The position numbers were made by a program, and so were the translations under genes. Positions 35,251 to 58,722 of a stretch of 64,000 nucleotides of DNA are shown piece by piece. Position 1 is the stretch's first letter. Each line of letters begins with the position of its first letter. A model generated the notes under the pieces. That model saw only the letters and a list, made by a program, of their open reading frames with translations. It did not search any database and was not told where the DNA came from. The DNA comes from Streptomyces drozdowiczii. Its GTDB lineage: Bacteria; Actinomycetota; Actinomycetes; Streptomycetales; Streptomycetaceae. The stretch spans positions 5,394,001 to 5,458,000 of the forward strand of contig NZ_CP098740.1 in NCBI RefSeq assembly GCF_026167665.1, written 5' to 3'.

Positions 35251-36066
35251 TCAGTGCGGCCAGATCGGCGGGTTGGTGCAGAAGTGGCCGCCGAGGTGGG
35301 CGTGGTCCGGGTTGGCCGGGTCCAGCTCGCCGTGTTCCGCGACGAGCTTCGCCGCGTACGGCTCCGAGTCGTCCTGCGGCTCGTAACCCAGCGCGCGGGC
35401 CGAGGTGAGGTCCCACCACAGCCGGGTGTTGTCCGAGGAGCCGTACACGACGGTGTGCCCGACGTTCTCGGCGGTCAGTGCCGCGTCGAAGAGCCGGGCC
35501 CCGTCCGCCGGGCTCATCCAGACCGAGAGCATCCGGACCGAGGTCGGCTCCGGGAAGCAGGAGCCGATGCGGACGGAGACCGTCTCCACGCCGTGCAGGT
35601 CCCAGTACAGCTGGGCAAGGTCCTCGCCGAACGACTTGGAGAGGCCGTAGAAGGTGTCGGGGCGGCGCGGGGTCTCCACCGGGATCAGCGGATCGCCCGG
35701 GAGCGGGCGCTGGGTGAAGCCCACCGCGTGGTTGGACGAGGCGAACACGACGCGCCGGACGCCGGCCTCGCGCGCGGCCTCGTAGAGGTTGTACGTGCCC
35801 TCGATGTTCGCCCGGAGGATCTTGTCGAAGGAGGCTTCCAGGGAGATGCCCGCGAGGTGGATGATCGCGTCGACCCCGGTCACCGCCGCGCGCAGCGCCT
35901 CCCGGTCCCCGAGGTCGGCGGTGATCGCGTCCGGCTCGCCCTCGATCGGCACCATGTCGAACAGGCGCAGTGTGTAGCCGTGGGCGGGCAGCAGCTCGCG
36001 CATCAGCGTGCCGAGGCCGCCGGCGGCGCCGGTGAGCAGGACGGTGCGGGGCTTTTCGGCGGGCAT
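35251..36066 (-). CDS. udh: Uronate dehydrogenase (NAD-dependent epimerase/dehydratase family)
   Basis: It should oxidise D-galacturonate or D-glucuronate with NAD+ to the aldarolactone. The 271-residue SDR protein has the Rossmann motif TGAAGGLGTLM, the catalytic Y-x3-K in FYGLSKSFGEDLA, and the segments HLAGISLE, FASSNHAVG and VRIGSCFPEPTSVRML, which match Agrobacterium-type Udh as I recall it. Divergent from kdgD, which acts later in the same pathway. It opens the pectin utilisation region. Confidence 0.87.
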   Translation of the reverse strand: MPAEKPRTVLLTGAAGGLGTLMRELLPAHGYTLRLFDMVPIEGEPDAITADLGDREALRAAVTGVDAIIHLAGISLEASFDKILRANIEGTYNLYEAAREAGVRRVVFASSNHAVGFTQRPLPGDPLIPVETPRRPDTFYGLSKSFGEDLAQLYWDLHGVETVSVRIGSCFPEPTSVRMLSVWMSPADGARLFDAALTAENVGHTVVYGSSDNTRLWWDLTSARALGYEPQDDSEPYAAKLVAEHGELDPANPDHAHLGGHFCTNPPIWPH

Positions 36067-36212
36067 GCGGGGTCTCCTCTTGGATCAGGTTCACATGCGT
36101 GGACAAGGTATGCGGGGGCCCGGAGGGCGTCAAGGGAGTCTGCGGAGGGTTGGTCCGGACCGGGGCGTCGTCGCCTTGACCCCGGAGCCTCGCCGGGCCT
36201 AGCTTAGGCATC

Positions 36213-36228
36213 GTTCATAAATATGGAC
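36213..36228. promoter_or_regulatory. Operator-like palindrome between udh and kdgD
   Basis: GTTCATA-AA-TATGGAC: seven-base arms with one mismatch, in an AT-rich patch that stands out in this genome. It also has the GTTC-N8-G(A/G)AC frame of the IclR-like site at 56.5 kb. It lies 36 bases before the kdgD start and 147 before udh. Confidence 0.5.
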
Positions 36229-36263
36229 ACCAATCAGAGATGCGCACGCCTCAGGAGGCGCCC

Positions 36264-37208
36264 GTGAGCTCAGACCCGCTGGCCGCCCGGCTCACCGCCG
36301 TTGCCGGGCCGCTCTTCTTCCCCGTCACCGCGTACGATGCGGCCGGCGCCGTCGACCTGGACGTCTTCCGGGCGCATGTCCGCCAGGGCATCGACGCGGG
36401 CGCGGCGGCCGTCTTCGCGTGCTGCGGCACCGGGGAGTTCCACGCCCTGGCCCCGGAGGAGTTCCGGAGCGTCGTCGCCGCCGCGGTGGAGGAGACCGCC
36501 GGGCAGGTGCCGGTCGTCGCGGGCGCCGGATACGGCACCGCGCTGGCCGTCCAGTTCGCCCGGCTCGCCGAGGAGGCCGGTGCGGACGGACTCCTCGCCA
36601 TGCCCCCGTACCTGGTCCACGCGGACCAGGAAGGGCTGCTGGCCCACTACACCGCGCTGGCCGGGGCGACCGGCCTGGAGACCATCGTCTACCAGCGCGA
36701 CAACGCCGTCTTCACCCCGGAGACCGTGCTCGCCCTGGCGCAGACCCCCGGGATCATCGGCCTGAAGGACGGCTACGGGGACCTGGACCTCATGCAGCGC
36801 ATCGTGAGTGCGGTGCGCACCGGGCTGCCCGGGTGGGACTTCCTCTACTTCAACGGGCTGCCCACCGCCGAACTCACCGGCCTCGCCTACCGGGGCATCG
36901 GCGTCACGCTGTACTCCTCGGCCGTCTTCGCCTTCGCCCCCGACATCGCGCTCGCCTTCTACCGCGCCCTGGACTCCGGCGACGACGCCCTGGTCAACGC
37001 GCTGCTCGACTCCTTCTACCGGCCGCTCGTCGAGCTCCGGGCCCAGGGCCGCGGCTACGCCGTCTCCCTGGTCAAGGCGGGCGTCCGGCTCCACGGCCTG
37101 GACGTCGGGCCGGTGCGCAGCCCGCTCACCGAGCCGCCTGCCGCCCACATCAAGGAGCTGACGGAGATCGTCGCCGCCGGGCGCGCGCTGCTGGAGGGGC
37201 GCGGATGA
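36264..37208 (+). CDS. kdgD: 5-dehydro-4-deoxyglucarate dehydratase
   Basis: This DapA-superfamily enzyme dehydrates and decarboxylates 5-dehydro-4-deoxy-D-glucarate to 2-oxoglutarate semialdehyde. The 314-residue product has the KdgD-type motifs CCGTGEFHALAPEEF, VYQRDN with Tyr143 and IIGLKDGYGD with Schiff-base Lys168, instead of DapA's TTGES and IPGRTG. The GTG at 36264 is chosen because AGGAGG lies 5 bases upstream; an ATG at 36240 is in frame. Together with udh it defines an oxidative uronate route. The next gene overlaps its stop by 4 bases. Confidence 0.92.
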   Translation: MSSDPLAARLTAVAGPLFFPVTAYDAAGAVDLDVFRAHVRQGIDAGAAAVFACCGTGEFHALAPEEFRSVVAAAVEETAGQVPVVAGAGYGTALAVQFARLAEEAGADGLLAMPPYLVHADQEGLLAHYTALAGATGLETIVYQRDNAVFTPETVLALAQTPGIIGLKDGYGDLDLMQRIVSAVRTGLPGWDFLYFNGLPTAELTGLAYRGIGVTLYSSAVFAFAPDIALAFYRALDSGDDALVNALLDSFYRPLVELRAQGRGYAVSLVKAGVRLHGLDVGPVRSPLTEPPAAHIKELTEIVAAGRALLEGRG

Positions 37209-39822: not shown

Positions 39823-39856
39823 GACGCGATACGCGAGATGTGAGAGCCCTTCACCC

Positions 39857-40513
39857 ATGACCTTTGCGCCCACCCCGATTCCGTCCCGCACCCAGTACGT
39901 GCTGGAGGCGATCAAGCACGCGATCCTCACGGCACAACTGAGGCCGGGGCAGGCGCTCGTGGAGACCGAGCTCGCCGCGCAGTTCGGGGTCTCCAAGACC
40001 CCCGTCCGCGAGGCGCTGAAGACCCTCGCCGGCACCGGACTCGTCGTCATGAGCCAGTACAAGGGTGCCACCGTCCGGCTGGTCGACGCGGCCATGGCCC
40101 GCGAGGTGTACGACGTACGGCTGCTGCTCGAACCGGAGGCGCTGCGCCGCTCGATCACCCGCAAGGCGTCCCTCGACGCGGCCCAGGAGGCCCTGGAGCG
40201 GGCGGACTCGGCGGGCGACAAGGCCGACCGCTCGCTCGCCAACCGGGACTTCCACCGGGCGCTCTACCTGCCCTGCGGCAACCCGCTGCTCGCCCGGATG
40301 CTCGACGAGGTCCGCGACCAGGCGGCGCTGGTCTCCACCGTCGCCTGGTCGGCGATCCCGTCCTGGGAGCGGGAGGCGGCCGAGCACCGGGAGATCCTGC
40401 GGCTCGCGCTCGCCGACGACGCGGACGCGGCGGCCGGGGCCCTGCACGACCACATCGCGTCGTTCGTCCGCCGCGCCTTCCCCGACGACGAGGACGGGGG
40501 CGGCGCGGCGTGA
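39857..40513 (+). CDS. GntR family regulator (FadR subfamily, FCD domain)
   Basis: A 218-residue regulator: N-terminal winged helix LRPGQALVETELAAQFGVSKTPVREALKTLAGTGLV and a C-terminal helical FCD domain. The FCD has VYDVRLLLEPEALR, the metal-ligand type histidines in NRDFHRALY and EHREILRLAL, and DHIASFVRR. FCD regulators bind sugar acids or other carboxylates. The overlap of its stop with the GTG at 40510 suggests it controls the dehydratase genes downstream. Confidence 0.92.
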   Translation: MTFAPTPIPSRTQYVLEAIKHAILTAQLRPGQALVETELAAQFGVSKTPVREALKTLAGTGLVVMSQYKGATVRLVDAAMAREVYDVRLLLEPEALRRSITRKASLDAAQEALERADSAGDKADRSLANRDFHRALYLPCGNPLLARMLDEVRDQAALVSTVAWSAIPSWEREAAEHREILRLALADDADAAAGALHDHIASFVRRAFPDDEDGGGAA

Positions 40514-40542
40514 ACCGGCACACCGAAGAAAGGCCAGTCCGC

Positions 40543-41445
40543 ATGGACCTCACCCCGCTGAAGGCGGCCCTCGCAGATGTCGTGGCGATCCCGGTGACCC
40601 CGTTCGCCGGGGACGGGTCCATCGACACGACGGCGCACCGCGCCCTGCTGCGGAGACTGCTCGACGGCGGCGTGCGCATCGTCACCCCGAACGGCAACAC
40701 CGGGGAGTTCTACGCGCTCACCCCCGAGGAGCGGCGCGCCGTCACCGAGCTGACCGTCGAGGAGGCCGGCGGCCGGGCCGCGGTCCTGGTGGGCGTGGGA
40801 CACGACGTGCCGACCGCCGTCGCCGCCGCCGAGCACGCCCGGGACGCCGGTGCCGAGATGGTGATGATCCACCAGCCCGTCCACCCGTACGTCTCGCAGG
40901 ACGGCTGGATCGACTACCACCGGGCCATCGCCGAGGCCGTGCCCGGGCTCGGGGTCGTCCCGTACATCCGCAACCCGCACCTGGACGGCGGCTGCCTGGC
41001 CGTGCTCGCCGACAGCTGCCCCAACGTCATCGGCGTCAAGTACGCGGTGCCGGACGCGGCCCGCTTCGCCGCCTTCGCCCGCGACGCCGGTCTTGACCGC
41101 TTCGTCTGGGTCGCCGGGCTCGCCGAGCTGTACGCCCCGGCCTACTTCTCCGCGGGCGCCACCGGCTTCACCTCCGGGCTCGTCAACGTGGCGCCCGGCG
41201 TCTCGCTGGCCATGCTGGAGGCGCTGCGGGCCGGCGACCACCCGGCGGCCATGAAGGTCTGGGAGCAGATCCGCCGCTTCGAGGAGCTGCGCGCCGACCG
41301 GCAGTCCGCCAACAACGTCACCGTCGTCAAGGAGGCCCTGGCCGCCCTCGGGCTGTGCGACCGCGCGGTGCGCCCGCCCAGCCGGGTGCTGCCCGAGGCA
41401 CAGCGCGCCGAGGTCGCCGACCAGATCGCCGGGTGGTCCATATGA
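40543..41445 (+). CDS. DapA-family sugar-acid dehydratase/aldolase
   Basis: A 300-residue class I aldolase of the N-acetylneuraminate lyase superfamily: NGNTGEFYALTPEER, PYIRNPH with Tyr141 and VIGVKYAVPD with Schiff-base Lys166. Lack of IPGRTG excludes lysine biosynthesis. Next to an IlvD/Edd dehydratase the best fit is 2-keto-3-deoxy sugar acid (for example L-arabonate-derived) dehydratase giving 2-oxoglutarate semialdehyde, or an aldolase; this is inference. The start may instead be the GTG at 40510, which overlaps gntR. The stop overlaps the next gene (ATGA). Confidence 0.85.
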   Translation: MDLTPLKAALADVVAIPVTPFAGDGSIDTTAHRALLRRLLDGGVRIVTPNGNTGEFYALTPEERRAVTELTVEEAGGRAAVLVGVGHDVPTAVAAAEHARDAGAEMVMIHQPVHPYVSQDGWIDYHRAIAEAVPGLGVVPYIRNPHLDGGCLAVLADSCPNVIGVKYAVPDAARFAAFARDAGLDRFVWVAGLAELYAPAYFSAGATGFTSGLVNVAPGVSLAMLEALRAGDHPAAMKVWEQIRRFEELRADRQSANNVTVVKEALAALGLCDRAVRPPSRVLPEAQRAEVADQIAGWSI

Positions 41446-43169
41446 CCGCCCGCATCGCCCCCGAGGAGCTGCGCAGCCACCAGTGGTACGGCACCGACGG
41501 GCTCCGCTCCTTCAGCCACCGCGCCCGCACCCGCCAGCTCGGCTACCTCCCCGAGGAGCACCTGGGCAAGCCGGTCGTGGCGATCCTCAACACCTGGTCG
41601 GACATCAACCCCTGCCACGTCCACCTGCGCGACCGGGCGCAGGCCGTGAAGCGCGGGGTCTGGCAGGCGGGCGGCTTCCCGCTGGAGTTCCCGGTCTCCA
41701 CGCTCTCGGAGACCTTCCAGAAGCCGACCCCGATGCTCTACCGGAACATGCTGGCGATGGAGACCGAGGAGCTGCTGCGCTCCTACCCGGTCGACGGGGC
41801 GGTCCTGCTCGGCGGCTGCGACAAGTCCACCCCGGCCCTGCTGATGGGCGCCGCGTCCGTGGACCTGCCGGCCGTCTTCGTACCGGCCGGGCCGATGCTG
41901 CCGGGGCACTGGCGCGACGAGGTCCTGGGCTCCGGCACCGACATGTGGAAGTACTGGGACGACAAGCGCGCCGGGCTCATCGGCGACTGCGAGATGGGCG
42001 AGCTGGAGAACGGCCTCGCCCGCTCGCCCGGCCACTGCATGACCATGGGCACCGCGTCCACCCTCACCGCGGCCGCCGAAGCGCTCGGCGTCACCGTCCC
42101 CGGCGCCTCCTCGATCCCCGCCGTCGACTCCGGCCACGACCGGATGGCCGCCGCCTCCGGCCTCCGCATCGTCGAACTGGTGTGGCAGCAGCGGAAGCTG
42201 TCGCAGATCCTCACGGCGGAGGCGTACGAGGACGCCGTCGCGACCGTCCTCGCGCTCGGCGGCTCCACCAACGCCGTCATCCACCTCATCGCGATGGCCG
42301 GCCGCTCCGGGATCAAGCTCACCCTGGACGACTTCGACCGCATCGCCCGCACCGTCCCGGTCCTCGCCAACCTGCGCCCCGGCGGGAAGTACCTGATGGA
42401 GGACTTCCACTTCGCCGGCGGGCTCCCCGGCTTCCTGGCCCGCCTCACCGACGTCCTGCACCTGGACCGCCCCACGGTCGCCCACGACACCCTGCGCGAA
42501 CAGCTCGACGGGGCGCTCGTACACAACGACGACGTCATACGGGAGCGCTCCAACGCCCTCGCCGAGGAGGGCGGCGTGGCGGTGCTGCGCGGCAACCTCT
42601 GCCCGGACGGCGCCGTCATCAAGCACATCGCCGCCGAACCGCACCTGCTGCGCCACACCGGACCCGCGGTCGTCTTCGACGACTACAAGGAGATGCAGCG
42701 CACCATCAACGACCCGGCGCTCGCGCTCACCCCCGACCATGTGCTGGTCCTGCGCAACGCGGGCCCCAAGGGCGGCCCCGGGATGCCCGAGTACGGCATG
42801 CTCCCGATCCCCGACTACCTGCTCAAGCAGGGCGTACGGGACATGGTCCGGCTCTCCGACGCCCGGATGAGCGGCACCAGCTACGGGGCGTGCGTGCTGC
42901 ACATCGCGCCCGAGTCGTACGTCGGCGGGCCGCTCGCCCTCGTCCGCACCGGTGACCTCGTCACCCTGGACGTCGGGGCGCGGCTGCTGAACCTCGACGT
43001 GCCCGACGAGGAACTGGCGCGCCGCCGCGCCGAGTGGACCCCGCCGCCGGTCCGGTACGAGCGCGGCTACCAGGCGCTCTACCAGGACCAGATCACCCAG
43101 GCCGACACCGGCTGCGACTTCGCCTTCCTGGCCCGGCCGGGAGCAGTGCCCGACCCGTACGCAGGCTGA
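41442..43169 (+). CDS. IlvD/Edd family sugar-acid dehydratase
   Basis: A 575-residue Fe-S dehydratase. C58 (INPCH), C126 (LGGCDKSTPA) and C199 (SPGHCMTMGTAST) are the three cluster ligands of the family, and K128 is the lysine near the Mg site. Family members dehydrate arabonate, xylonate, gluconate-type acids or branched dihydroxyacids. Coupling to the DapA-family gene, and not to ilv genes, points to a pentonate or hexonate such as L-arabonate. There is a 4-base overlap upstream. Confidence 0.88.
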   Translation: MTARIAPEELRSHQWYGTDGLRSFSHRARTRQLGYLPEEHLGKPVVAILNTWSDINPCHVHLRDRAQAVKRGVWQAGGFPLEFPVSTLSETFQKPTPMLYRNMLAMETEELLRSYPVDGAVLLGGCDKSTPALLMGAASVDLPAVFVPAGPMLPGHWRDEVLGSGTDMWKYWDDKRAGLIGDCEMGELENGLARSPGHCMTMGTASTLTAAAEALGVTVPGASSIPAVDSGHDRMAAASGLRIVELVWQQRKLSQILTAEAYEDAVATVLALGGSTNAVIHLIAMAGRSGIKLTLDDFDRIARTVPVLANLRPGGKYLMEDFHFAGGLPGFLARLTDVLHLDRPTVAHDTLREQLDGALVHNDDVIRERSNALAEEGGVAVLRGNLCPDGAVIKHIAAEPHLLRHTGPAVVFDDYKEMQRTINDPALALTPDHVLVLRNAGPKGGPGMPEYGMLPIPDYLLKQGVRDMVRLSDARMSGTSYGACVLHIAPESYVGGPLALVRTGDLVTLDVGARLLNLDVPDEELARRRAEWTPPPVRYERGYQALYQDQITQADTGCDFAFLARPGAVPDPYAG

Positions 43170-43258: not shown

Positions 43259-44188
43259 ATGGCCCAAGCCTCCGCCGCGGCCACACCGCCCAAGGTGCCC
43301 CGGCGCCGCTCCGCGAGCCCCCGCCGGCTGCCGTATCTGCTGATCGCCCCCGCGGGGCTGCTGATGCTCGGCTTCATCGCCTATCCGGTGGTCAGCGTCT
43401 TCTACTACAGCCTCCAGAACTACAACGTCACCAAGCCGTGGCGGAACGGCTTCGCGGGCCTCGACAACTTCACCCGGATCTTCACCGAGGACGACCAGTT
43501 CTGGACGACCCTCGGCTTCAGCGCCCAGTGGGTCTTCGTGCAGGTCGCGCTCCAGCTCACGCTGGGGCTCGCGCTGGCCCTGATCGTCAACCAGACCTTC
43601 ATCGGCCGGGGCATCTCCCGCGCCATGGTCTTCTCGCCCTGGGCCGTCTCCGGGGTGCTGACCAGCACCATCTGGATCCTGCTCTACAACTCCTCGACCG
43701 GCTTCAGCCGCTACCTCGCGGACGCCGGGATCGGTGAGTACGGCACCTCGGTGCTCTCCGACACCGGCACCGTCTTCTGGGCCGCGACCGTCGCCGAACT
43801 CTGGCGCGGCGTCCCCTTCTTCGCCATCCTCATCCTCGCCGACCTCCAGTCCGTCTCCAAGGAGCTGTACGAGGCGGCCGCCGTGGACGGCGCCGGACGG
43901 CTGCGGCAGTTCTTCCACATCACCCTGCCCCACCTGCGCGACGCGATCATCCTGTCGACGCTGCTGCGCGGGGTCTGGGAGTTCAACAACGTCGACCTGC
44001 TCTACACCCTCACCGGCGGCGGACCGGCCGGCGAGACCACCACCCTGCCGCTCTACGTCGCCAACACCGGCATCGAGGGCCACGACTTCGGCTACGCCTC
44101 CGCGCTCACCACCGTCGCCTTCGTGATCCTCCTCTTCTGCTCGATCGTCTATCTGCGCCTGAGCAAGTTCGGAGGCGACCACAAGTGA
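43259..44188 (+). CDS. Sugar ABC transporter permease (MalF type)
   Basis: A 309-residue inner-membrane protein with six helices. The ATPase-contacting EAA loop is ELYEAAAVDGAGRLRQFFHITLPHLRDAI. It is the first gene of an operon of six, in which neighbours overlap by 4 bases or are a few bases apart. With the second permease and the lipoprotein binding protein it forms a CUT1-type importer, probably for pectin- or arabinan-derived oligosaccharides. Confidence 0.93.
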   Translation: MAQASAAATPPKVPRRRSASPRRLPYLLIAPAGLLMLGFIAYPVVSVFYYSLQNYNVTKPWRNGFAGLDNFTRIFTEDDQFWTTLGFSAQWVFVQVALQLTLGLALALIVNQTFIGRGISRAMVFSPWAVSGVLTSTIWILLYNSSTGFSRYLADAGIGEYGTSVLSDTGTVFWAATVAELWRGVPFFAILILADLQSVSKELYEAAAVDGAGRLRQFFHITLPHLRDAIILSTLLRGVWEFNNVDLLYTLTGGGPAGETTTLPLYVANTGIEGHDFGYASALTTVAFVILLFCSIVYLRLSKFGGDHK

Positions 44189-45102
44189 CTGCCGCACTCG
44201 CCGAGAAGAACGGCACCCGCGCCGCACGCCCGGCCGCCCCCGAAGGCCCGCCGCCCGCCGCGCCCCGCCGCGGGTCCGGCCGCGAACGCGCCTTCGACGA
44301 CGTGCCGCGCTGGCAGATCTACGTACCGCTGGGCGTCTACCTGGTCTTCACGCTCGTTCCGTTCTACTGGATGTTCCTCTTCGCCGTCCGGCCCGCGGGG
44401 TCCACCTCGCTGGTGCCGTGGCCGATGACCGGGGAGCACTTCTCCAAGGTCTGGAACGAGCGCAGCTTCGCCGTCTTCTTCCAGAACAGCATGATCGTCG
44501 GCGTCTGCACCCTGCTCGCCACGACCCTCGTCGCGCTGGCCGGCGGCTACGCCCTCGCCCGGTTCGACTTCAGGATCAAGAACGGCTTCATGCTGGCGCT
44601 GCTCTGCTCGCAGTTCATCCCCGGCGCGCTGATGCTCGTCCCGCTCTTCGAGATCTTCAAGAACCTCCAGATGATCAACTCCCTGGGGAGCGTGGTCATC
44701 GCCGAGACGGTCTTCCAGCTGCCGCTCTCCATCATCCTGATCAGCGGATTCATCAAGAACGTGCCCCCTTCGCTGGAGGAGGCCGCCTGGGTGGACGGCT
44801 GCTCGCGCTTCCGGGCCTTCTGCGCGGTCGTGCTGCCGCTGCTGCGCCCCGGGCTCATCGCCGTCGGCTCCTTCGCCTTCGTGCACAGCTGGAACCACTT
44901 CCTGTTCGCGCTGATGTTCCTCAGCGAGCAGGACAAGCAGACGATCCCGGTCGGCCTGAACACCCTGATCGGCGCGGACAGCGTCGACCTGGGCGCGCTC
45001 GCCGCGGGCGGGGTGATCGCCGCGGTGCCCGTGGTGATCGTCTTCGCCTTCATCCAGAAGTGGCTGATCACCGGCTTCAGCGCCGGCGCCGTGAAGGGGT
45101 GA
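44185..45102 (+). CDS. Sugar ABC transporter permease (MalG type)
   Basis: A 305-residue permease with a Pro/Ala-rich cytosolic N-terminus of about 45 residues and six helices. The EAA loop is SLEEAAWVDGCSRFRAFCAVVLPLLRPGL. The GTG at 44185 overlaps the preceding stop codon. No ATPase gene lies in the operon; Streptomyces commonly uses one shared ATPase (MsiK) for such systems. Confidence 0.93.
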   Translation: MTAALAEKNGTRAARPAAPEGPPPAAPRRGSGRERAFDDVPRWQIYVPLGVYLVFTLVPFYWMFLFAVRPAGSTSLVPWPMTGEHFSKVWNERSFAVFFQNSMIVGVCTLLATTLVALAGGYALARFDFRIKNGFMLALLCSQFIPGALMLVPLFEIFKNLQMINSLGSVVIAETVFQLPLSIILISGFIKNVPPSLEEAAWVDGCSRFRAFCAVVLPLLRPGLIAVGSFAFVHSWNHFLFALMFLSEQDKQTIPVGLNTLIGADSVDLGALAAGGVIAAVPVVIVFAFIQKWLITGFSAGAVKG

Positions 45103-45107: not shown

Positions 45108-46271
45108 ATGACCTCGCTGCCCCTCCCGATCGTCCTCGCGGGCGCCCGGGGCCACGGTCGCTGGCACCTCGCCAACATCCGCCGCCTCCAGCACCAGGGC
45201 CTCGTCCGCCTCGCCGGCATCTGCGAACTCACCCCGCTCGACGCCACCGAGCTGGCCGGCTTCGCGGACGAATCCCCCGAGCAGTCCGCCGACTTCGGCG
45301 CCCTCCTGGACTCCACCGGCGCCCGCGCCGCGGTGATCTGCACCCCCATCCAGACCCACACCGCCCTCGCCCTGACCGCCGCCGGACGCGGCGTGCACCT
45401 CCTCCTGGAGAAGCCGCCCGCCGCCACCCGCGCCGACTTCGACCGCATCCGCGCCGGGGTGCGCGACGCGGGCACCGCCTGCCAGGTGGGCTTCCAGTCC
45501 TTCGGCTCGCACGCCGTCCCCGCCATCCGGGAGCTCGTCGCCACCGGCGCCGTCGGCACCGTACGGGGCTACGCGGCGGCGGGCGCCTGGGTCCGCGACG
45601 ACGCCTATTACGGGCGGGCGCCCTGGGCCGGCCGGCGCCGCATCGGGGACACCGACGTGGTCGACGGCGTCCTCACCAACCCGCTCGCCCACGCCGTCGC
45701 CACGGCCCTCGAACTCGCCGGGACCACCGCCGAGGACATCACCGCCATCGACACCGAGCTCTTCCGGGCCCACGACATCGAGGCCGACGACACCTCCTGC
45801 GTACGCGTCACCACCGCGTCCGGGCCGCCCGTCACCGCCGCCGTCACCCTCTGCGCGGAACAGGCGGGGGAGCCGTACGTCATCGTCCACGGCGACCGCG
45901 GCCGGATCACCTTCTGGTACAAGCAGGACCGCGTCCTCGTCCAGCGCGCCGGACACGGCCCCCTGGAGACCGTGCACGGCCGCACCGACCTCCTGGAGAA
46001 CCTGGTCGCCCACCTGACGGAAGGCGCCCCGCTCCTCGTACCGCCGGAGCGCACCGGCGCCTTCATGGAGGTCGTGGAGGCCGTACGGACCGCGCCCGAA
46101 CCGCGTCCCCTGCCGTCCGACGCCTGGCACACCGCGCCCGTGCCCGGCACCGGGGCCACCCGCCGGGTGGTGCGCGGCATCGACGCCCTGGTCGCGTCCG
46201 GCGCCGAAACCCTCGCCCTCTTCTCCGAACTCGGCGCCCCCTGGGCCCGCAGCGAGGTGACCTCCCCATGA
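45108..46271 (+). CDS. Gfo/Idh/MocA family oxidoreductase
   Basis: A 387-residue NAD(P)-dependent sugar dehydrogenase. It has an N-terminal Rossmann fold (IVLAGARGHGRWHLANI), ICTPIQTHTALA and the EKPPAAT motif with the conserved Glu-Lys-Pro, then a C-terminal alpha/beta domain. Some members oxidise L-arabinose or other aldoses to lactones. Beside a GH43 enzyme and an IlvD/Edd dehydratase this could be the first oxidative step; direct evidence is absent. The end overlaps the PmoA-like gene by 4 bases. Confidence 0.88.
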   Translation: MTSLPLPIVLAGARGHGRWHLANIRRLQHQGLVRLAGICELTPLDATELAGFADESPEQSADFGALLDSTGARAAVICTPIQTHTALALTAAGRGVHLLLEKPPAATRADFDRIRAGVRDAGTACQVGFQSFGSHAVPAIRELVATGAVGTVRGYAAAGAWVRDDAYYGRAPWAGRRRIGDTDVVDGVLTNPLAHAVATALELAGTTAEDITAIDTELFRAHDIEADDTSCVRVTTASGPPVTAAVTLCAEQAGEPYVIVHGDRGRITFWYKQDRVLVQRAGHGPLETVHGRTDLLENLVAHLTEGAPLLVPPERTGAFMEVVEAVRTAPEPRPLPSDAWHTAPVPGTGATRRVVRGIDALVASGAETLALFSELGAPWARSEVTSP

Positions 46272-48669: not shown

Positions 48670-50000
48670 ACATCTCGAAGACGCAGCGGGGGCGCGCCAC
48701 GGCCGCCGTCTCCCTCGCGGCGGTGCTCGCCCTGACGGCGACCGCGTGCGGCGACGACGGCAGCGCGAGCGGCGGCGAGGGCAGCGGCAAGGGCGAGATC
48801 ACCTTCTGGGACAACAACGGCGGCCCGCGCACCGCCGTCTGGAAGGAGATCATCCAGGACTTCGAGAAGAAGTACCCGGACATCGAGGTGAAGTACGTGC
48901 CGATCCCGATCGCCGACGTGCAGTCCAAGTACGACACGGCCATCGCGGGCGGCGGAGTGCCGGACGTCGGCGGTGTCGGCACCGCCTACCTGGCCAACAT
49001 GGTCTCGCAGGACGCCCTGGAACCGCTGGGCGACCGGATCAAGGACTCCTCGCTCAACGGCAAGCTGGTCGAGGGCATGGTCGAGAGCGTCAAGGACGCG
49101 GCCGGGCGGGACGACGAGATGTACACCGTGCCGACCTCCGCGAACAACGGCGCGCTCTGGTACCGCACCGACCTCTTCAAGGCGGCCGGACTGGAAGCGC
49201 CCACCAGCTGGGCCACGTTCTACGAGGCCGCCGAGAAGCTGACCGACGCCAAGAAGAACAAGTTCGGCTACACCATCCGCGGCGGCGCCGGCTCCATCGC
49301 CCAGGCCCTCGACGCGGCGTACGGGCAGTCGGGCATCACCGAGTTCTGGAACGGTGACAAGACCACCCTCAACGATCCCAAGAACGTGGCGGCGCTGGAG
49401 AAGTACGCCGCCCTCTACAAGAAGACGACGCCGTCCGCCGACGTCAACAACGACTTCACCAAGATGGTCGCCCAGTTCGACACCGGCACCATCGGGATGC
49501 TGAGCCACAACCTCGGCTCCTACCAGGACCACCTGAAGGCCCTCGGCAAGGACAAGTTCGCCGGCATACCCAACCCGGTCGGCGACGGCGGCACCCGCGT
49601 CCAGGTCTCCAACCCGGTCGACGGCCTCGGCCTGTTCAAGGCGAGCAAGAACAAGACCGCCGCCTGGAAGTTCATCGAGTTCGCCGCCTCGCACGAGTCG
49701 AACAGCAAGTGGAACGAGTCCGCGGGCGCCATCCCCGCCAACACCGAGGCCGCCAAGGACCCGTGGATCAGCGAGGCCGCCCCGACCGAGCTGGCCGCGA
49801 AGGCCCTCACCGACGGCTCCACCAAGATCGTGCAGCTGCCGTACTACCTGCCCGACTGGAACAACATCAGCAAGGCCGACAACGAGCCGGAGTTCCAGAA
49901 GCTGCTGCTCGGCAAGGTCACGGCCAAGGCGTTCCTGGACAAGATGGCCGACGAGCTCAACGCGGCCCAGAAGGAGTGGAAGGAGCGCGGCAACGGCTGA
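48666..50000 (+). CDS. Sugar ABC transporter substrate-binding lipoprotein
   Basis: A 444-residue CUT1-type binding protein. It has an n-region, a hydrophobic segment and the lipobox-like LTATAC, after which the cysteine is lipidated. The mature part begins GDDGSASGGEGSGKGEITFWDNNGG and shows AIAGGGVPDVGGVGTAYLANM and a C-terminal DELNAAQKEWKERG. It is placed last in the operon, after GH43, with a 4-base overlap. The partners are the two permeases upstream. Confidence 0.94.
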   Translation: MNISKTQRGRATAAVSLAAVLALTATACGDDGSASGGEGSGKGEITFWDNNGGPRTAVWKEIIQDFEKKYPDIEVKYVPIPIADVQSKYDTAIAGGGVPDVGGVGTAYLANMVSQDALEPLGDRIKDSSLNGKLVEGMVESVKDAAGRDDEMYTVPTSANNGALWYRTDLFKAAGLEAPTSWATFYEAAEKLTDAKKNKFGYTIRGGAGSIAQALDAAYGQSGITEFWNGDKTTLNDPKNVAALEKYAALYKKTTPSADVNNDFTKMVAQFDTGTIGMLSHNLGSYQDHLKALGKDKFAGIPNPVGDGGTRVQVSNPVDGLGLFKASKNKTAAWKFIEFAASHESNSKWNESAGAIPANTEAAKDPWISEAAPTELAAKALTDGSTKIVQLPYYLPDWNNISKADNEPEFQKLLLGKVTAKAFLDKMADELNAAQKEWKERGNG

Positions 50001-50115: not shown

Positions 50116-51462
50116 ATGTCCACACGCATTTCTGTCCGCAGAAACCACGCCCGTGCCATCGCCGTCACGATGGGCTGCGCCTCGCTGGCCCTCGCCCTGA
50201 GCCTCCCCGCGCAGGCCGCCCCGCAGCCCCACGGCACGAAGAGCGCCGAGCGCGCCGTCCTCGCGAAGGGCGACGGCTGGGCCTCCGCCGAGGGCTCCAC
50301 CACCGGTGGCGCCGCCGCGACGCCCGACCACGTCTACACCGTGCACAACCGCGCCGAACTCATCGCCGCCTTCGAGGACGCGGGCGACGCCCCGAAGATC
50401 GTCCGGATCGCCGGGACCGTGCACGGCAACGCCGACGCCGAGGGCAACCCGATCGACTGCGAGGCGTACCAGACCGACGGCTACACCCTGGACAAGTACC
50501 TCGCCGCCTACGACCCCGGCACCTGGGGCCGCGAGGAGGTCCCGTCCGGGCCGCTGGAGGACGCCCGGCTCGCCTCCGCCAAGCTCCAGAAGGCCGCCGT
50601 CAACGTCTACGTCCCGTCCAACACCACGCTGATCGGCACCGGCCGGGACGCCACGGTCATCGGCGCCTCGATCCAGATCCAGAACGTCTCCAACGTCATC
50701 GTCCGCAACATCTCCTTCGAGGACACCTACGACTGCTTCCCGCAGTGGGACCCGACCGACGGCGACACCGGCCACTGGAACTCCGAGTACGACAACCTCG
50801 TCGTCTACGGCTCCGACCACGTCTGGGTCGACCACAACACCTTCAGCGACGGCGACCGCCCCGACGCCGACCAGCCCCGGTACTTCAACGAGCTGTACCA
50901 GCAGCACGACGGGCTCTTCGACATCGTCAAGGGCGCCGACCTGGTGACCGCCTCCTGGAACGTCCTCAAGGACCACGACAAGACCATGCTCCTCGGCAAC
51001 AGCGACAAGGCCGGGGACACCGACCGGGGCAAGCTCCGCGTCACCCTGCACCACAACCTCTTCAAGGACGTCAACGAGCGGGCGCCCCGCGTCCGCTTCG
51101 GCCAGGTCGACTCGTACAACAACCACTTCGTCGCCACGAAGGGCAGCGTCTACGGCTACTCGTACGGGATCGGCGCCGAGTCCCACCTCGTCGCCGAGCA
51201 CAACGCGTTCACGCTCAGCGGTGAGTTCGACCAGGCGAAGATCCTCAAGAAGTGGTCGGAGTCCTCGCTCACGGCCGCCGACAACTGGGTCAACGGCCGC
51301 CGCACCGACCTGATCGCCGTCCACAACGCGGGCGTGCCCGAGGAGCAGCTGACCACGGGCGCCGGCTGGACCCCGACCCTCCGCAACCGGGTCGACCACC
51401 CGCTGCTGGTGCCGCTCGTCGTGGGCCTCGGCGCGGGCGCGGGCCGGCTGCCCGGCGCCTGA
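50116..51462 (+). CDS. Secreted pectate lyase (PL1)
   Basis: It cleaves polygalacturonate by beta-elimination outside the cell. The 448-residue product has a Sec signal (MSTRISVRRNHARAIAVTMG... LPAQA, cut before APQPHG) and a parallel beta-helix. PL1 hallmarks are VIVRNISFEDTYDCFPQWDPTDG, the calcium-binding VWVDHNTFSDGDRPD, and NERAPRVRFGQVDSYNNHF, where R-x-P-x-x-R carries the catalytic arginine. It is the first of two secreted pectin enzymes and starts 115 bases after the ABC operon. Confidence 0.94.
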   Translation: MSTRISVRRNHARAIAVTMGCASLALALSLPAQAAPQPHGTKSAERAVLAKGDGWASAEGSTTGGAAATPDHVYTVHNRAELIAAFEDAGDAPKIVRIAGTVHGNADAEGNPIDCEAYQTDGYTLDKYLAAYDPGTWGREEVPSGPLEDARLASAKLQKAAVNVYVPSNTTLIGTGRDATVIGASIQIQNVSNVIVRNISFEDTYDCFPQWDPTDGDTGHWNSEYDNLVVYGSDHVWVDHNTFSDGDRPDADQPRYFNELYQQHDGLFDIVKGADLVTASWNVLKDHDKTMLLGNSDKAGDTDRGKLRVTLHHNLFKDVNERAPRVRFGQVDSYNNHFVATKGSVYGYSYGIGAESHLVAEHNAFTLSGEFDQAKILKKWSESSLTAADNWVNGRRTDLIAVHNAGVPEEQLTTGAGWTPTLRNRVDHPLLVPLVVGLGAGAGRLPGA

Positions 51463-51535: not shown

Positions 51536-52621
51536 ATGCCCACCCGACGCACCGCCCTGGCCCTCTTCGCCTCCTCCGCCCTCGCCCTCGGCACCGCCTC
51601 GCCCGCCGTCGCGCACGCCCGCCCTTTCGGCCGCCACGGCTCGCCCGCCCGCCGCCGCGACCACGCGACCCTGTACGTCGACGCGCGTGGCCGGGGCGAC
51701 CACACCACCGTCCAGGCCGCCGTGGACGCGGCCACCGGCACCGGGCGCACCCTGGTGCTCGCCCCCGGCACCTACCGGGAGACCGTGGACATCCCCGCCG
51801 ACCGGACCGGCCTCACCCTCATCGGCGCGAGCGGCGACCCGCGCGACACGGTGATCGTGTACGACAACGCCAACGGCACCCCGCGCCCCGACGGTTCGGG
51901 CACCTACGGCACCAGCGGGTCCGCCACGGTCACCGCCCGGCCCGCCGGACTCACCGCCCGCGACCTGACCTTCGCCAACGACTGGCTGCGCGCCGACCAC
52001 CCCGACTACGCCGGCACCCAGGCCGTCGCCGTCAAGGTGACCGGCGACCGCTCGGCGTTCCACAACTGCCGCTTCCTGGGCCACCAGGACACGCTGTACG
52101 CGGACTCCGCGTCGCTCACCGACTTCGCCCGGCAGTACTACCGCGACTGCTACGTGGAAGGGGACGTGGACTTCGTCTTCGGCCGGGCGTCGGCAGTCCT
52201 GGACCACTGCCACTTCCGCACCCTGGCCCGCACCGACCTGACCGGACCGCCCCACGGCTTCGTCTTCGCGCCGAGCACCGCCGGGGCCGACCCGCACGGC
52301 TTCCTGGTCCTGCGCTCCCGGGTCACCAGCACCGCCCCCGACGGGTACTTCAAGCTGGCCCGCCCCTGGGTCCCGTCCTCGGACCTCACCGCGCACCCCA
52401 TGCTCACCGTGCGCGACAGCCACCTCGGCGCGGGCATCGACACGGACGAGCCGTACGGCACGATGTCGGCGGGCTTCCCGTGGCAGGAGCAGCGGTTCGC
52501 GGAGTACCGCAACACGGGGCCGGGCGCACGCGTCACGGTCCCGGCCAACCGGCCCCAGCTCACGGCGTACGAGGCGCGGCAGCACACCCCCGCCGCCTGG
52601 CTGGGCGACTGGAGGCCCTGA
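51536..52621 (+). CDS. Secreted pectinesterase (CE8)
   Basis: It removes methyl esters from pectin so that pectate lyase can act. The 361-residue product has a signal peptide with two arginines (PTRRTALALFASSALALGTASPAVA) that could use Tat. The CE8 motifs are ALAVKVTGD-type strand, CRFLGHQDTLYADS (catalytic Asp), YYRDCYVEGDVDFVFG (nucleophile Asp) and LARPW near the C-terminus. AAAGGAG precedes the ATG. It lies 73 bases after the lyase gene and likely shares its message. Confidence 0.94.
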   Translation: MPTRRTALALFASSALALGTASPAVAHARPFGRHGSPARRRDHATLYVDARGRGDHTTVQAAVDAATGTGRTLVLAPGTYRETVDIPADRTGLTLIGASGDPRDTVIVYDNANGTPRPDGSGTYGTSGSATVTARPAGLTARDLTFANDWLRADHPDYAGTQAVAVKVTGDRSAFHNCRFLGHQDTLYADSASLTDFARQYYRDCYVEGDVDFVFGRASAVLDHCHFRTLARTDLTGPPHGFVFAPSTAGADPHGFLVLRSRVTSTAPDGYFKLARPWVPSSDLTAHPMLTVRDSHLGAGIDTDEPYGTMSAGFPWQEQRFAEYRNTGPGARVTVPANRPQLTAYEARQHTPAAWLGDWRP

Positions 52622-55503: not shown

Positions 55504-55603
55504 CCCGCTTGAGGGACGAGCGGCGTCCGGCGGAGCGTTCCCGGTTGTGCCGCTTCTCACCGATTCCTCATACGGTGACCACGCCGTGCACGGCCGTACG
55601 GGC

Positions 55604-55660
55604 TCAGCCCGGCTTGGCGAATCCCGACTCGTACGCCGTGATCACCGCCTGGCCGGGGGG
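55604..55660 (-). pseudogene. C-terminal remnant of a LuxR-type response regulator
   Basis: Directly after the iclR stop codon, and in the same frame, the minus strand reads PP then GQAVITAYESGFAKPG and a stop. The AYESG-x3-PG ending after a QAV-helix is the characteristic C-terminus of Streptomyces NarL/LuxR response regulators. No other part of such a gene is present, so this looks like a scar of a deletion or insertion that ends at the iclR gene. Confidence 0.6.
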
Positions 55661-56431
55661 TCAGAGTCTGCGGGTGGCGAGCGTCAGCCGGTCGCGCGCG
55701 TCGAACAGCGCGTCCTTGACCAGCTGTTCGTGCGCGGGCGTCAGCCGGGCGACCGGCACCGAGCAGCTGATGGCGTCCCTGGCCGGCGTGCGGTACGGGA
55801 CGGCGACGCCGAAGCAGCGCAGCCCCAGCGTGTTCTCCTCGCGGTCCACCGCGTACCCCTGCTCGCGGATCTGGTGCAGCTCCTCGATGAGCTTCTCCCG
55901 GTCCGTCAGGGTGTGCTCGGTGAGCGCGGGCAGCGTCTCGGGCAGCATCTTGCGGACCTGCTCGTCGGTGTAGGTGGCCAGCAGCGCCTTGCCGAGCGAG
56001 GTGGAGTGCGCGGGCAGCCGGCGGCCGACCCGGGTGAAGGGGCGCAGGTAGTGCTGGGACTGGCGGGTGGCGAGGTAGACCACGTTGGTGCCGTCGAGCC
56101 GGGCCAGGTGGATGGTCTCCGTGGTGTCGTCGGAGAGCCGGTCGAGCGTGGGGCGGGCCGCGGCGACGACCTCGTCGCCGTCGATGTACGAGGTCCCGAC
56201 CAGGAGGGCCCGTACGCCGATCCCGTACCGCGTGCCGGTCGCGTCGGTCTCCACCCAGCCCAGCTCCACCAGGGTGCGCAGCAGCATGTAGAGGCTGGAC
56301 TTCGGGTAGCCGACGGCCTCCTGGACCGCGGCGAGCGAGTGCATGCCGGGCCGTCCGGCGAAGTACTCCAGCAGCTCGACCGTCCGTACCGCGGACTTGA
56401 CCTGCGCCCCACCCGACTCGGGAACCGACAT
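55661..56431 (-). CDS. IclR family transcriptional regulator
   Basis: A 256-residue IclR protein. The N-terminal winged helix is AVRTVELLEYFAGRPGMHSLAAVQEAVGYPKSSLYMLLRTLVELGWVE. The C-terminal effector domain has STSLGKALLATY, GYAVDREENTLGLRCFGVAVPYR and the conserved Cys in AISCSVP. IclR proteins of the KdgR branch respond to pectin breakdown products. The ATG at 56431 is preferred (AAAGGGG/AGGG upstream); an ATG at 56518 is in frame. It diverges from the aldehyde dehydrogenase gene across a GTTC/GAAC palindrome. Confidence 0.9.
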   Translation of the reverse strand: MSVPESGGAQVKSAVRTVELLEYFAGRPGMHSLAAVQEAVGYPKSSLYMLLRTLVELGWVETDATGTRYGIGVRALLVGTSYIDGDEVVAAARPTLDRLSDDTTETIHLARLDGTNVVYLATRQSQHYLRPFTRVGRRLPAHSTSLGKALLATYTDEQVRKMLPETLPALTEHTLTDREKLIEELHQIREQGYAVDREENTLGLRCFGVAVPYRTPARDAISCSVPVARLTPAHEQLVKDALFDARDRLTLATRRL

Positions 56432-56529
56432 CGCCCTGACCCCTTTCACCCCGCCGACGAAACCCTGCGACTTCTTGCCAACACCGAACGCCCGGAAATA
56501 GAGTCGCTTCACATTCACGTTCAGGAACG

Positions 56530-56551
56530 CTGTTCAGAATACCGAACAGCT
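56530..56551. promoter_or_regulatory. Candidate IclR operator
   Basis: GCTGTTC-N8-GAACAGC, a perfect 7-bp inverted repeat, lies between the divergent iclR and aldehyde dehydrogenase genes. GTTC-AG-GAAC (56519-56528) stands next to it, extending the GTTC/GAAC pattern. A -10-like TTATAC or TATACC follows at 56552-56558, so binding would affect dehydrogenase transcription. Confidence 0.65.
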
Positions 56552-56599
56552 TATACCGGACGACTTCTGATGTGCGGCAGTAAAGCGGAAGGAAACACG

Positions 56600-58120
56600 G
56601 TGGCAGCAGCACCAGTCTGGAGCGTCGACCCCCGCACCGGGAACCCGCGCGAGCAGGTTGCGGTGGAGGCCACAGCGGAGGAGGTCGACCGCGCGGTCCG
56701 CGCCGCCCACGCGGTACGCGACTCCCTCGCCCACCGCACGAAGCGCGCCGCGTTCCTGCGTACGGCCGCCGAACTGCTCACCGAGGCCGGGGACCACGTC
56801 ATCGAGGCCGCCGACGCCGAGACCGCCCTCGGCCCGGCCCGGCTGACCGGCGAACTCGCCCGCACCGCGGCCCAGTTGCGGGCCTTCGCGGAGGTCGTCG
56901 ACGAGGGCGCCTTCCTCGACATCCACATCGACCACGCGGACGCCACCCGCACCCCGCCCTGGCCCGACCTGCGCCGCTACAAGATCCCGCTCGGCGTCGT
57001 CGCGGTCTACGCCGCCAGCAACTTCCCGCTCGCCTTCTCCGTGCCCGGCGGCGACACCGCCAGCGCCCTCGCGGCCGGCTGCCCCGTCGTCGTCAAGGCC
57101 CACCCGGACCACCCGGCGACCTCCGAACTGTGCGCCTCCGTCCTGCGCCGGGCCGCCGCGCGCACCGGGCTGCCCGAGGACGTCGTCACCCTCGTCCACG
57201 GCTTCGAGGCGGGCGTCGCCCTCGTCCGGCACCCGCTCGTCGCCGCCGCCGGATTCACCGGCTCGGTGCGCGGCGGGCGCGCCCTGTTCGACGCGGCCGC
57301 CGCCCGCCCCGCGCCCATCCCCTTCCACGGCGAGCTGGGCTCCCTCAACCCCGTCGTCGTCACCGAGGCCGCAGCCGCCGAGCGCGGCGAGGAGATCGGC
57401 GCGGGCCTGGCCGGCTCGATGACCATGGGCGCCGGCCAGTTCTGCACCAAGCCCGGATTCGTCCTGGTCCCCGAGGGCGAGGGCGGCGACCGCCTCCTCA
57501 AGGCGCTCACCGAGGCCGTCAGCGACACCGAGGCCGGGGTCCTCCTCGACCACCGCATGCGCGACGCCTTCCTCGCCGGGGTCACCGAGCGCGCCGCGCT
57601 CCCCGGGGTCGAGGCGCCCGTCACCCCCGGCGCGGGCGGCGAGCACACCGTCGCGGCCGGCTTCCTGACCGTCCCGGCCCGCGAGCTCACCGCCGAGGGC
57701 CCGCACGACGCGCTCCTGGAGGAGTGCTTCGGCCCGGTCACCGTCGTCGCCCGCTACGCCTCCGAGGACGAGATCACCGCCGTCCTCACCCGCCTCCCCG
57801 GCAACCTCACCGCCACCCTCCACATCGCCACCGAGGAGGCCGGGGGCGCCGCTGCGGACCTCCTCGCCGCGCTCACCCCGCTCGCCGGGCGGGTCCTCGT
57901 CAACGGCTGGCCGACCGGCGTCGCCGTCGCCCCCGCCCAGCACCACGGCGGCCCCTACCCGGCCACCACCTCCACCTCCACCTCGGTCGGCGCCACCGCC
58001 ATCGAGCGCTGGCTGCGCCCGGTCAGCTACCAGACCACCCCCGACGCGCTCCTCCCGCCGGAGCTGCGCGAGGACAACCCGCTGGGCCTGCCCCGCCGAG
58101 TGAACGGACGCCCCGCGTGA
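56600..58120 (+). CDS. Aldehyde dehydrogenase, probably 2-oxoglutarate semialdehyde dehydrogenase
   Basis: It should oxidise 2-oxoglutarate semialdehyde to 2-oxoglutarate with NAD(P)+. The 506-residue product has ASNFPLAFSVPGGDTASALAAGCPVVVKAHP (N141), GFTGSVRGG, HGELGSLNP (E245) and the catalytic C282 in GAGQFCTKPG, a set I associate with the bacterial KGSADH group. It fits as the common last step for the udh/kdgD route and the IlvD/Edd-DapA route. GTG at 56600 is chosen because GGAAGGAA lies about 6 bases upstream; the frame is open further. Confidence 0.88.
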   Translation: MAAAPVWSVDPRTGNPREQVAVEATAEEVDRAVRAAHAVRDSLAHRTKRAAFLRTAAELLTEAGDHVIEAADAETALGPARLTGELARTAAQLRAFAEVVDEGAFLDIHIDHADATRTPPWPDLRRYKIPLGVVAVYAASNFPLAFSVPGGDTASALAAGCPVVVKAHPDHPATSELCASVLRRAAARTGLPEDVVTLVHGFEAGVALVRHPLVAAAGFTGSVRGGRALFDAAAARPAPIPFHGELGSLNPVVVTEAAAAERGEEIGAGLAGSMTMGAGQFCTKPGFVLVPEGEGGDRLLKALTEAVSDTEAGVLLDHRMRDAFLAGVTERAALPGVEAPVTPGAGGEHTVAAGFLTVPARELTAEGPHDALLEECFGPVTVVARYASEDEITAVLTRLPGNLTATLHIATEEAGGAAADLLAALTPLAGRVLVNGWPTGVAVAPAQHHGGPYPATTSTSTSVGATAIERWLRPVSYQTTPDALLPPELREDNPLGLPRRVNGRPA

Positions 58121-58722
58121 ACCTCCCCGAACTCCCCTTCGCGCTCCGGCCGTACGGTCCCGAGGGCGGCTGGACGTACGAGAACGGCACGCTCACCGGC
58201 CGCGCCGGCGCCCGCCAGGACCGCTTCGTCCCGCCGGGCGGCGACACCCTGGAACCGGCGAGCGACGCGCCCCGGCTGCTCGGCGCCGCCCCGGCGGGCG
58301 ACTTCCAGCTCGTCGCCCGGGTGAAGGTGGGCTTCGCCGCCGCCTTCGACGCGGGCGTGCTCTACCTCCACACCGGCGACCGGGAGTGGGCCAAGCTCTG
58401 CCTGGAGCTGTCCCCGGAGCGCCCGACCATCTGCACGGTGGTCACCCGGGGCCACTCGGACGACGTCAACTCCTCCGTCGTGGACGGCGACACGTACTGG
58501 CTGCGCCTGAGCCGTACGGGGCACGCCTTCGCGTTCCACGCCTCGGCCGACGGCGAGAAGTGGACCTTCGTCCGCGTCTTCACCCTCGGCACCCCGGAGC
58601 AGGCGGCCACCGCATCCGTCGGCTTCCTCGCCCAGTCGCCCACCGGCGAGGGCTGCGAGGTGGCCTTCGACCGGATCGCCTTCCGGCCGGAGGGCCTGGC
58701 GGACCTCCGCGACGGCAGCTGA
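58117..58722 (+). CDS. DUF1349 family protein
   Basis: A 201-residue protein with the concanavalin-like DUF1349 fold: DFQLVARVKVGFAAAFDAGVLYLHTGDREWAKLCLELS, then TYWLRLSRTGHAFAFHASADGEKWTFVRVF. No signal peptide is seen. DUF1349 proteins are often found in sugar catabolic clusters and may bind carbohydrate; activity unknown. The GTG start overlaps the dehydrogenase stop codon by 4 bases, tying it to the pectin region. Confidence 0.88.
   Translation: MNLPELPFALRPYGPEGGWTYENGTLTGRAGARQDRFVPPGGDTLEPASDAPRLLGAAPAGDFQLVARVKVGFAAAFDAGVLYLHTGDREWAKLCLELSPERPTICTVVTRGHSDDVNSSVVDGDTYWLRLSRTGHAFAFHASADGEKWTFVRVFTLGTPEQAATASVGFLAQSPTGEGCEVAFDRIAFRPEGLADLRDGS

Follow-up and report, generated by a model that had tools for sequence, protein, structure and literature searches.

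The question raised by the DNA examined here, viz. a 64,000-nucleotide stretch of Streptomyces drozdowiczii (contig NZ_CP098740.1, positions 5,394,001 to 5,458,000; hereafter the window), which is part of a 7.39 Mb one-contig genome, is what a second dehydratase pair is doing in a locus for the use of pectin. Besides a pectate lyase (PL1), a pectinesterase (CE8) and a sugar importer, the window encodes a uronate dehydrogenase (Udh), the 5-keto-4-deoxyglucarate dehydratase KdgD and a probable 2-oxoglutarate semialdehyde dehydrogenase (KGSADH), and alongside these an IlvD/Edd-family dehydratase (IlvD), a second enzyme of the DHDPS family (DapA2) and a Gfo/Idh/MocA dehydrogenase (Gfo). In the initial annotation of this DNA the latter three proteins were read as a pentose route, through which the arabinose side chains of pectin would reach the same semialdehyde as its galacturonate backbone. 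All of the genes named there were found where it had placed them, with identities at the family level, when the sequences were searched against Pfam, NCBIfam and the PDB. However, the sequence evidence on the second branch leans towards aldarate over pentonate chemistry, and we tentatively favour the reading that the locus, conserved in Streptomyces, serves the use of homogalacturonan-rich pectin and that its second branch acts on aldarates and not on pentoses.

Relatives of the locus were found with the Gfo protein as bait, and the best 80 of 363 loci, all of them named, were fetched; the named relatives of the operon are Streptomyces. The main conservation figures are for the 61 of these 80 loci whose sequence runs to 20 kb or more, and presence in the 80 loci was counted at 45% or higher identity and at least 50% coverage. 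The full set of ten core genes (gntR through the PL1 gene) is present in 58 of the 61 long loci and collinear in all 58, due to which it is clear that the gene set is a real, conserved Streptomyces unit, beyond chance. The genes for GntR, DapA2, IlvD, both permeases, the DUF6807 protein and the substrate-binding protein (SBP) are each present in 61/61 long loci (as is gfo, by construction, since it was the bait), and those for PL1, the GH43 glycosidase and CE8 in 60, 59 and 51 of them. The spacing between gntR and dapA2 is at most 20 nt in 74 of 75 cases, and that between dapA2 and ilvD in 65 of 76. Further, the kdgD stop is overlapped by 4 nt by a gene for a TIM-barrel protein in 34/34 loci, and udh is divergent from the latter gene in 29/29. 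The iclR and kgsadh genes were each found in no more than 2 of the 61 stretches, and together in one; as a rule, then, they are located over 10 kb away or elsewhere. A different arrangement is seen in nine loci (L057, L060-L063, L065, L067, L069 and L070), where udh directly adjoins gntR and there is no local kdgD or TIM-barrel gene; for 7 of these nine, kdgD was found elsewhere in the genome. No paper on this locus was found in literature searches limited to open-licence PMC text.

The pectin and uronate part of the locus stands, and it is ordinary in kind. The proposal that udh and kdgD form an oxidative uronate route within a pectin locus is supported by the presence of Udh, KdgD and a KGSADH-type protein. 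Of the best PDB matches of Udh, 6mfh is a named mutated uronate dehydrogenase, 3ay3 a named epimerase/dehydratase and 3rft a uronate dehydrogenase, and on sequence the protein is a uronate dehydrogenase; in the available portion of PMC4476818, the Udh of Streptomyces viridochromogenes is characterised on glucuronate and galacturonate. KdgD passes NF002958 and has the KdgD residues of a 5-keto-4-deoxyglucarate dehydratase, but misses the stricter TIGR03249 equivalog (328 vs 374). The KGSADH-type protein misses the NCBIfam GucD equivalog (89 vs 770), and its best PDB matches, 1eyy and 3v4c, are aldehyde dehydrogenases. Rival and missing steps were searched for in the genome alongside 14 control genomes, some of which were positive every time. 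No match in the genome was found for UxaC, GarD or GH88/105, nor, at E 0.001, for the SMP-30 lactonase (PF08450), for which 8/14 control genomes were positive. A KduI route was set aside, as the sole PF04962 match lies between sugar-kinase-like and IolD-like genes and, judged by this context, is taken as IolB in what looks like an inositol cluster. A route in which the unsaturated product of the lyase is oxidised straight to the KdgD substrate was likewise considered and set aside. With no UxaC and the only KduI-family match in such a cluster, Udh is the sole galacturonate entry found. An enolase-family enzyme (L166) is encoded elsewhere in the genome, unlinked to the locus; it scores 253 bits vs the glucarate dehydratase cut-off of 828.7 and falls within the clade of clustered enzymes (99/98). 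The clustered condition is seen in 11 fetched loci that are built differently, of which ten come from outside the genus: an enolase-family dehydratase gene adjoins the TIM-barrel gene in 11/11, and the fetched 20 kb hold udh in 9/11, kdgD (at least 42%) in 10/11, kgsadh in 7/11 and iclR in 6/11.

If DapA2 served an arabinose route, then it should resemble KdaD, the diagnostic residues of which are given, in the part of PMC13398020 available, as N52, Q144, E174, E200 and E201, those of KdgD being Thr54, the catalytic Tyr and a serine. At the diagnostic places DapA2 has N, T, Y, A, L, a gap and T, and this pattern is constant in 74/74 orthologues except for three A-to-S changes at the E174 place. 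The KdaD residues Q144, E174, E200 and E201 are thus missing, the Gln place is taken by a Tyr in all 74, and every one of them carries the Thr, Tyr and hydroxyl residue typical of KdgD. As a control, a Paraburkholderia DHDPS gene beside an IlvD gene (L208) shows exact KdaD spacing (92, 30, 27, 16) and all seven residues. A tree of 21 rows places DapA2 together with a pair of structures from structural genomics and the DHDPS genes of Pseudosulfitobacter, Thioclava and Skermanella, and this group joins KdgD with moderate support (88/90); KdaD, YagE and NanA are placed elsewhere, on long, weakly placed branches. DapA2 also lacks the YagE/NanA loop after the tyrosine, and it keeps the Tyr and Lys of the family. 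In two alphaproteobacteria (L205, L206), a DHDPS subfamily close to DapA2 is encoded beside IlvD relatives and an NADP-dependent aldehyde dehydrogenase (NADP-ALDH); in Skermanella (L176), a gene of this subfamily lies some 5 kb away from kdgD.

The IlvD protein shares only 52% identity with the characterised L-arabinonate dehydratase of Rhizobium leguminosarum. The Rhizobium enzyme clusters (98/100) with Paracoccus, Limimaricola and Paraburkholderia genes whose neighbours look arabinose-like, and in the tree the IlvD of the window lies outside this clade. In the ten annotated contexts of 57-64% IlvD relatives that were examined, 2/10 are near kdgD (both Skermanella), 3/10 are by tripartite tricarboxylate transporters, and several hold RraA, HpcH, enolase or NADP-ALDH genes. 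The family is described, in the portion of the review PMC9795676 available, as strict with regard to the configuration at C2 and C3, and the Rhizobium enzyme as accepting D-fuconate, L-arabinonate and D-galactonate. As galactarate would have the same C2/C3 configuration, it is, by analogy, a plausible substrate of IlvD. The idea that IlvD is the only possible aldarate dehydratase was rejected, since the genome also encodes L166, an enolase of the clustered type.

The co-occurrence of the two modules counts in favour of the aldarate reading. Among 28 genomes of this genus within a class-wide sample of 296, ilvD and kdgD orthologues occur together in 16 and are both missing from 11, while a single genome has kdgD alone and none has ilvD alone (Fisher p 5.6e-7, ignoring shared ancestry and linkage); orthologues were read from tables at thresholds of at least 80% for ilvD and at least 68% for kdgD, and remoter relatives, which exist in several genomes, are uncounted. 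The modules are physically apart and yet both kept in G404 (separate contigs) and G465 (about 0.7 Mb, on one contig); iclR and kgsadh remain with udh in G440, G387 and G351, where an ilvD orthologue is absent. The pattern is not a simple rule, however. Of 20 named genomes that were picked, not random (17 without a local kdgD and 3 with one), 15 have a kdgD orthologue; it was not found in 5, one of which has a 49% paralogue. In these five, udh, dapA2 and ilvD are free of stops over at least 99% of their length, as would be expected if DapA2 can stand in, and if udh is still useful there then DapA2 would be the obvious replacement for KdgD. In three loci (L050, L064, L068), udh faces the TIM-barrel gene directly with no kdgD between, and in L068 kgsadh is at the locus.

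Gfo was set aside as an L-arabinose dehydrogenase, because it matches that enzyme (7cgq) with 29 bits, its top match being 43 bits to another oxidoreductase. Among 20 of the 30 best-scoring DUF6807 loci, all paralogous Streptomyces loci (L145-L164), a Gfo-family gene stands directly before the DUF6807 gene in 20/20, with an ilvD or dapA2 label in 0/20 and importer permeases in 12/20, and a Gfo match adjoins DUF6807 in 28/30 short loci; the pair is therefore a module of its own. However, in L195 gfo occurs with dapA2 and ilvD and no DUF6807, so it may still belong to their branch. DUF6807 was considered and set aside as the missing sugar lactonase, as its galactose-mutarotase-like model argues for a protein that handles anomers. 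Relatives of the importer permeases (64-68%) occur with PL1, udh and kgsadh in L187, L188 and L194, stretches that hold no GH43, gfo or ilvD. Further, araB, araA and araD are present together in the genome (ribulokinase 738 vs 583; isomerase 794 vs 622; epimerase 311 vs the subfamily cut-off of 257, with the equivalog TIGR00760 missed at 281 of 389), due to which arabinose appears to have the usual isomerase route here. Hence, of the view that one region handles both the backbone and the arabinose side chains of pectin, the backbone part is retained and the arabinose part is weak. Likewise the Gfo, IlvD/Edd and second DapA-type genes all exist, but their assignment to pentoses is weakened by the DapA2 residues, the distance of Gfo and the clade position of IlvD.

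Two genes were absent from the list of the initial annotation, viz. that for the 393-aa TIM-barrel protein (37205-38386) and that for the DUF6807 protein (46268-47095). The former is the most novel component of the locus and its family is uncharacterised. The predicted model has a TIM-barrel fold with at most 17% identity to any listed structure match, and E164 at strand 4 is invariant. A retaining glycoside hydrolase of the GH42 kind would have catalytic acids on strands 4 and 7, but when the alignment and model were inspected no conserved acid was noticed on strand 7. It belongs to no named sequence family or Pfam entry, and has at least 2,798 relatives. Its gene is coupled to kdgD in Streptomyces (adjacency being counted by eye) and stands beside an enolase-family dehydratase gene in other actinobacteria. 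Relatives on two Rhizobium plasmids (L112, L113) have another setting, their neighbours including a gene of the succinylglutamate desuccinylase family as well as an amidohydrolase and a sugar ABC importer.

A single KGSADH-type gene beside an IclR gene, as originally described, is supported, and a predicted operator there is found again in the gap separating udh from kdgD. The iclR-kgsadh gap contains an exact GTTC-N8-GAAC palindrome (56532-56547), which has one further exact match in the window, at 17341. Searching promoters for palindromes as such was uninformative; better results came from a matrix trained on seven iclR|kgsadh sites, two of which (window, L094) are within the scanned sequence. 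At 12 bits or more it has 184 matches in 1.62 Mb (the window and 80 relatives) vs 6 in the reversed sequence. Counting at 40% and 60% thresholds with the window included, the udh-kdgD gap is matched in 26/26 loci with both genes (36211-36230 in the window, 22.1 bits) and the gap between ilvD and permease 1 in 28/77, with scores up to 27; there is no importer site by this matrix in the present window, which has four more matches of 13-15 bits outside these gaps. Many of the 184 matches are intragenic (38 in permease 2, 19 in sbp, 15 in PL1) and probably coding coincidences. It is thus probable, on this sequence pattern, that IclR controls udh/kdgD and kgsadh. The DUF1349 gene (58117-58722) overlaps the kgsadh stop. 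The features are collected in Table 1; the start codon of gntR is a computational choice.

Table 1. Features of the pectin locus in the window, with positions counted from the first letter of the stretch and scores in bits where given.
Feature	Position	Strand	Evidence
Udh-like uronate dehydrogenase (SDR)	35251..36066	-	PDB 6mfh 244 bits, 3ay3 238, 3rft 214
Predicted IclR operator, udh-kdgD gap, TCGTTCATAAATATGGACAC	36211..36230	.	matrix score 22.1
KdgD, 5-keto-4-deoxyglucarate dehydratase	36240..37208	+	NF002958 431 bits vs cut-off 278; PDB 4ur7 243 bits
TIM-barrel protein without annotation, 393 aa	37205..38386	+	4-nt overlap with kdgD stop
MFS transporter, looks unrelated to pectin genes	38372-39601
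GntR-FCD regulator	39857..40513	+	PF07729, PF00392
DapA2, DHDPS-family enzyme, KdgD-sister subfamily	40510..41445	+	PF00701; tree; diagnostic residues
IlvD/Edd sugar-acid dehydratase	41442..43169	+	NF009559 922 vs 882 (scanned with N-terminal extension); PDB 5j83 616 bits
ABC sugar importer permease 1	43259..44188	+	PF00528
ABC sugar importer permease 2	44185..45102	+	PF00528
Gfo/Idh/MocA dehydrogenase	45108..46271	+	PF01408, PF22725; top PDB match 43 bits
DUF6807 protein, galactose-mutarotase-like predicted fold	46268..47095	+
GH43 glycosidase with GH43_C2 domain	47092..48669	+	PF04616, PF17851
Importer SBP	48666..50000	+	PF01547
PL1 pectate lyase	50116..51462	+	PF00544
CE8 pectinesterase	51536..52621	+	PF01095
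Penicillin-binding protein, looks unrelated to pectin genes	54058-55560
IclR regulator	55661..56518	-	PF01614, PF09339
IclR operator-like palindrome, CTGTTCAGAATACCGAACAG	56530..56549	.	exact GTTC-N8-GAAC; matrix training site
Aldehyde dehydrogenase, probable KGSADH	56600..58120	+	PF00171; PDB 1eyy 391 bits, 3v4c 352 bits
DUF1349 protein downstream of kgsadh	58117..58722	+	PF07081, found in longer reading frame

Based on these results, the locus may be envisaged to work as follows. PL1 and CE8, presumed to be secreted, would cut the polymer, and the ABC importer would take up decorated oligogalacturonides, from which GH43 would trim neutral side sugars inside the cell and the TIM-barrel protein would most likely free uronic acid. 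Udh would convert galacturonate to the aldarolactone and aldarate, and the aldarate would be dehydrated by the unlinked enolase-family enzyme and/or, if galactarate is its substrate, by IlvD. KdgD and/or, putatively, DapA2 would turn 5-keto-4-deoxyglucarate into 2-oxoglutarate semialdehyde and KGSADH the latter into 2-oxoglutarate, probably under the control of IclR. What IlvD, DapA2, Gfo and the TIM-barrel protein act on is inferred here, as are the cargo of the importer and the binding of IclR. The second route probably meets the first at or before 2-oxoglutarate semialdehyde, and the convergence suggested earlier may then hold, but from galacturonate twice and not from arabinose. A fuller version, in which IlvD is a galactarate dehydratase, DapA2 a second 5-keto-4-deoxyglucarate dehydratase and the GH42-like TIM barrel a new intracellular uronidase or aldarolactonase replacing GH88/105 or SMP-30, is speculative and, taken in all its parts, rather improbable.

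Several observations weigh against an aldarate function of the second branch. IlvD passes the NCBIfam equivalog NF009559 for L-arabinonate dehydratase (922 vs 882, for the protein scanned with an N-terminal extension), GH43 suggests the release of arabinose, and N52 is common to DapA2 and KdaD. Two relatives of IlvD are in contexts that fit a sugar route, viz. L209, with a sugar ABC importer, SMP-30, a short-chain dehydrogenase (SDR) and alpha-glucosidase, and L206, with SMP-30. The accessible part of PMC6336799 reports that an ILVD/EDD L-arabinonate dehydratase is highly substrate-specific, and no report of galactarate activity for IlvD/Edd was found in the portions of the literature examined. 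With enolase L166, of the uronate-cluster type, in the genome, IlvD is dispensable as an aldarate dehydratase; all five genomes in which no kdgD orthologue was found are shotgun drafts; and the relatives share ancestry, which makes the counts non-independent. If the locus instead held a non-phosphorylative L-arabinose route beside the uronate route, then the passing of the L-arabinonate dehydratase model by IlvD would be explained, as would the closeness of GH43 to GH43-CE (6mly, 129 bits) and arabinofuranosidase (5joz, 119 bits) structures, its top PDB matches; a Paracoccus cluster in which IlvD, Gfo and NADP-ALDH are found together also speaks for this route. Such a route is nonetheless unlikely, in view of a DapA2 without the KdaD-specific glutamine or glutamates, a Gfo very remote from L-arabinose dehydrogenase, an IlvD outside the clade of the characterised enzyme, a genome without an SMP-30 lactonase match and the presence in it of araB, araA and araD together.

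It may also be that Gfo and IlvD convert a galacto-configured sugar (L-arabinose or D-galactose) to a 2-keto-3-deoxy acid, and that DapA2 then cleaves this acid with release of pyruvate and an aldehyde, in which case the sugar route would not meet the uronate route at the semialdehyde. There are many aldolases in the DHDPS family, the family Tyr and Lys are kept in DapA2, and in E. coli the aldolase gene yagE lies beside the IlvD/Edd gene yagF; however, the missing YagE/NanA loop, and the grouping of DapA2 with KdgD and not with YagE/NanA (whose branches are long and weakly placed), make a cleavage of this kind doubtful. Lastly, two independent pathways could share the locus since both derive from pectin, their exact substrates being species-dependent. 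The separation of the modules in G404 and G465, and the retention of iclR and kgsadh with udh in the three genomes lacking an ilvD orthologue, are in keeping with this. We give it little credence, as in the 28-genome sample an ilvD orthologue never occurs without that of kdgD, and in 28/77 loci there are predicted IclR operators in the gap separating ilvD from the importer genes. The aldarate reading is the preferred one, tentatively as stated.

If correct, it would explain the use of the pectin backbone by a streptomycete without UxaC or GH88/105 matches, and it would constitute a new division of labour for IlvD/Edd and KdgD-type enzymes, leading toward aldarate-derived chemicals. The locus points to a large uncharacterised TIM-barrel family with a clear pathway context, and the unannotated TIM-barrel gene and a possible IlvD-type galactarate dehydratase are of specialist interest. 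It also carries a warning that it will be incorrect to interpret an L-arabinonate dehydratase annotation alone as indicating an arabinose route.

In comparison with known systems, the 393-aa protein differs from the TIM barrels of GH42, PgaB and Cwp19 in its low identity (at most 17%) and in that no strand-7 acid was seen; GH42 enzymes carry a CxCxxC zinc site. The YagE/YagF aldolase route resembles the locus in that a DHDPS enzyme gene adjoins an IlvD/Edd dehydratase gene, but here DapA2 is without the aldolase loop and IlvD is 32% identical to YagF. The non-phosphorylative L-arabinose route II similarly shares an IlvD/Edd dehydratase, a DHDPS-family enzyme, an aldehyde dehydrogenase and a Gfo-type dehydrogenase, whereas in the present case the KdaD residues are gone, IlvD is outside the clade, SMP-30 has no match and Gfo is distant. 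The likeness to the oxidative uronate pathway lies in the Udh, KdgD and KGSADH-type genes, all of which are in the genome of the window; the differences are that GarD has no match, that the clustered-type enolase is unlinked, and that there is an extra TIM-barrel gene and, alongside, the second dehydratase pair of IlvD and DapA2.

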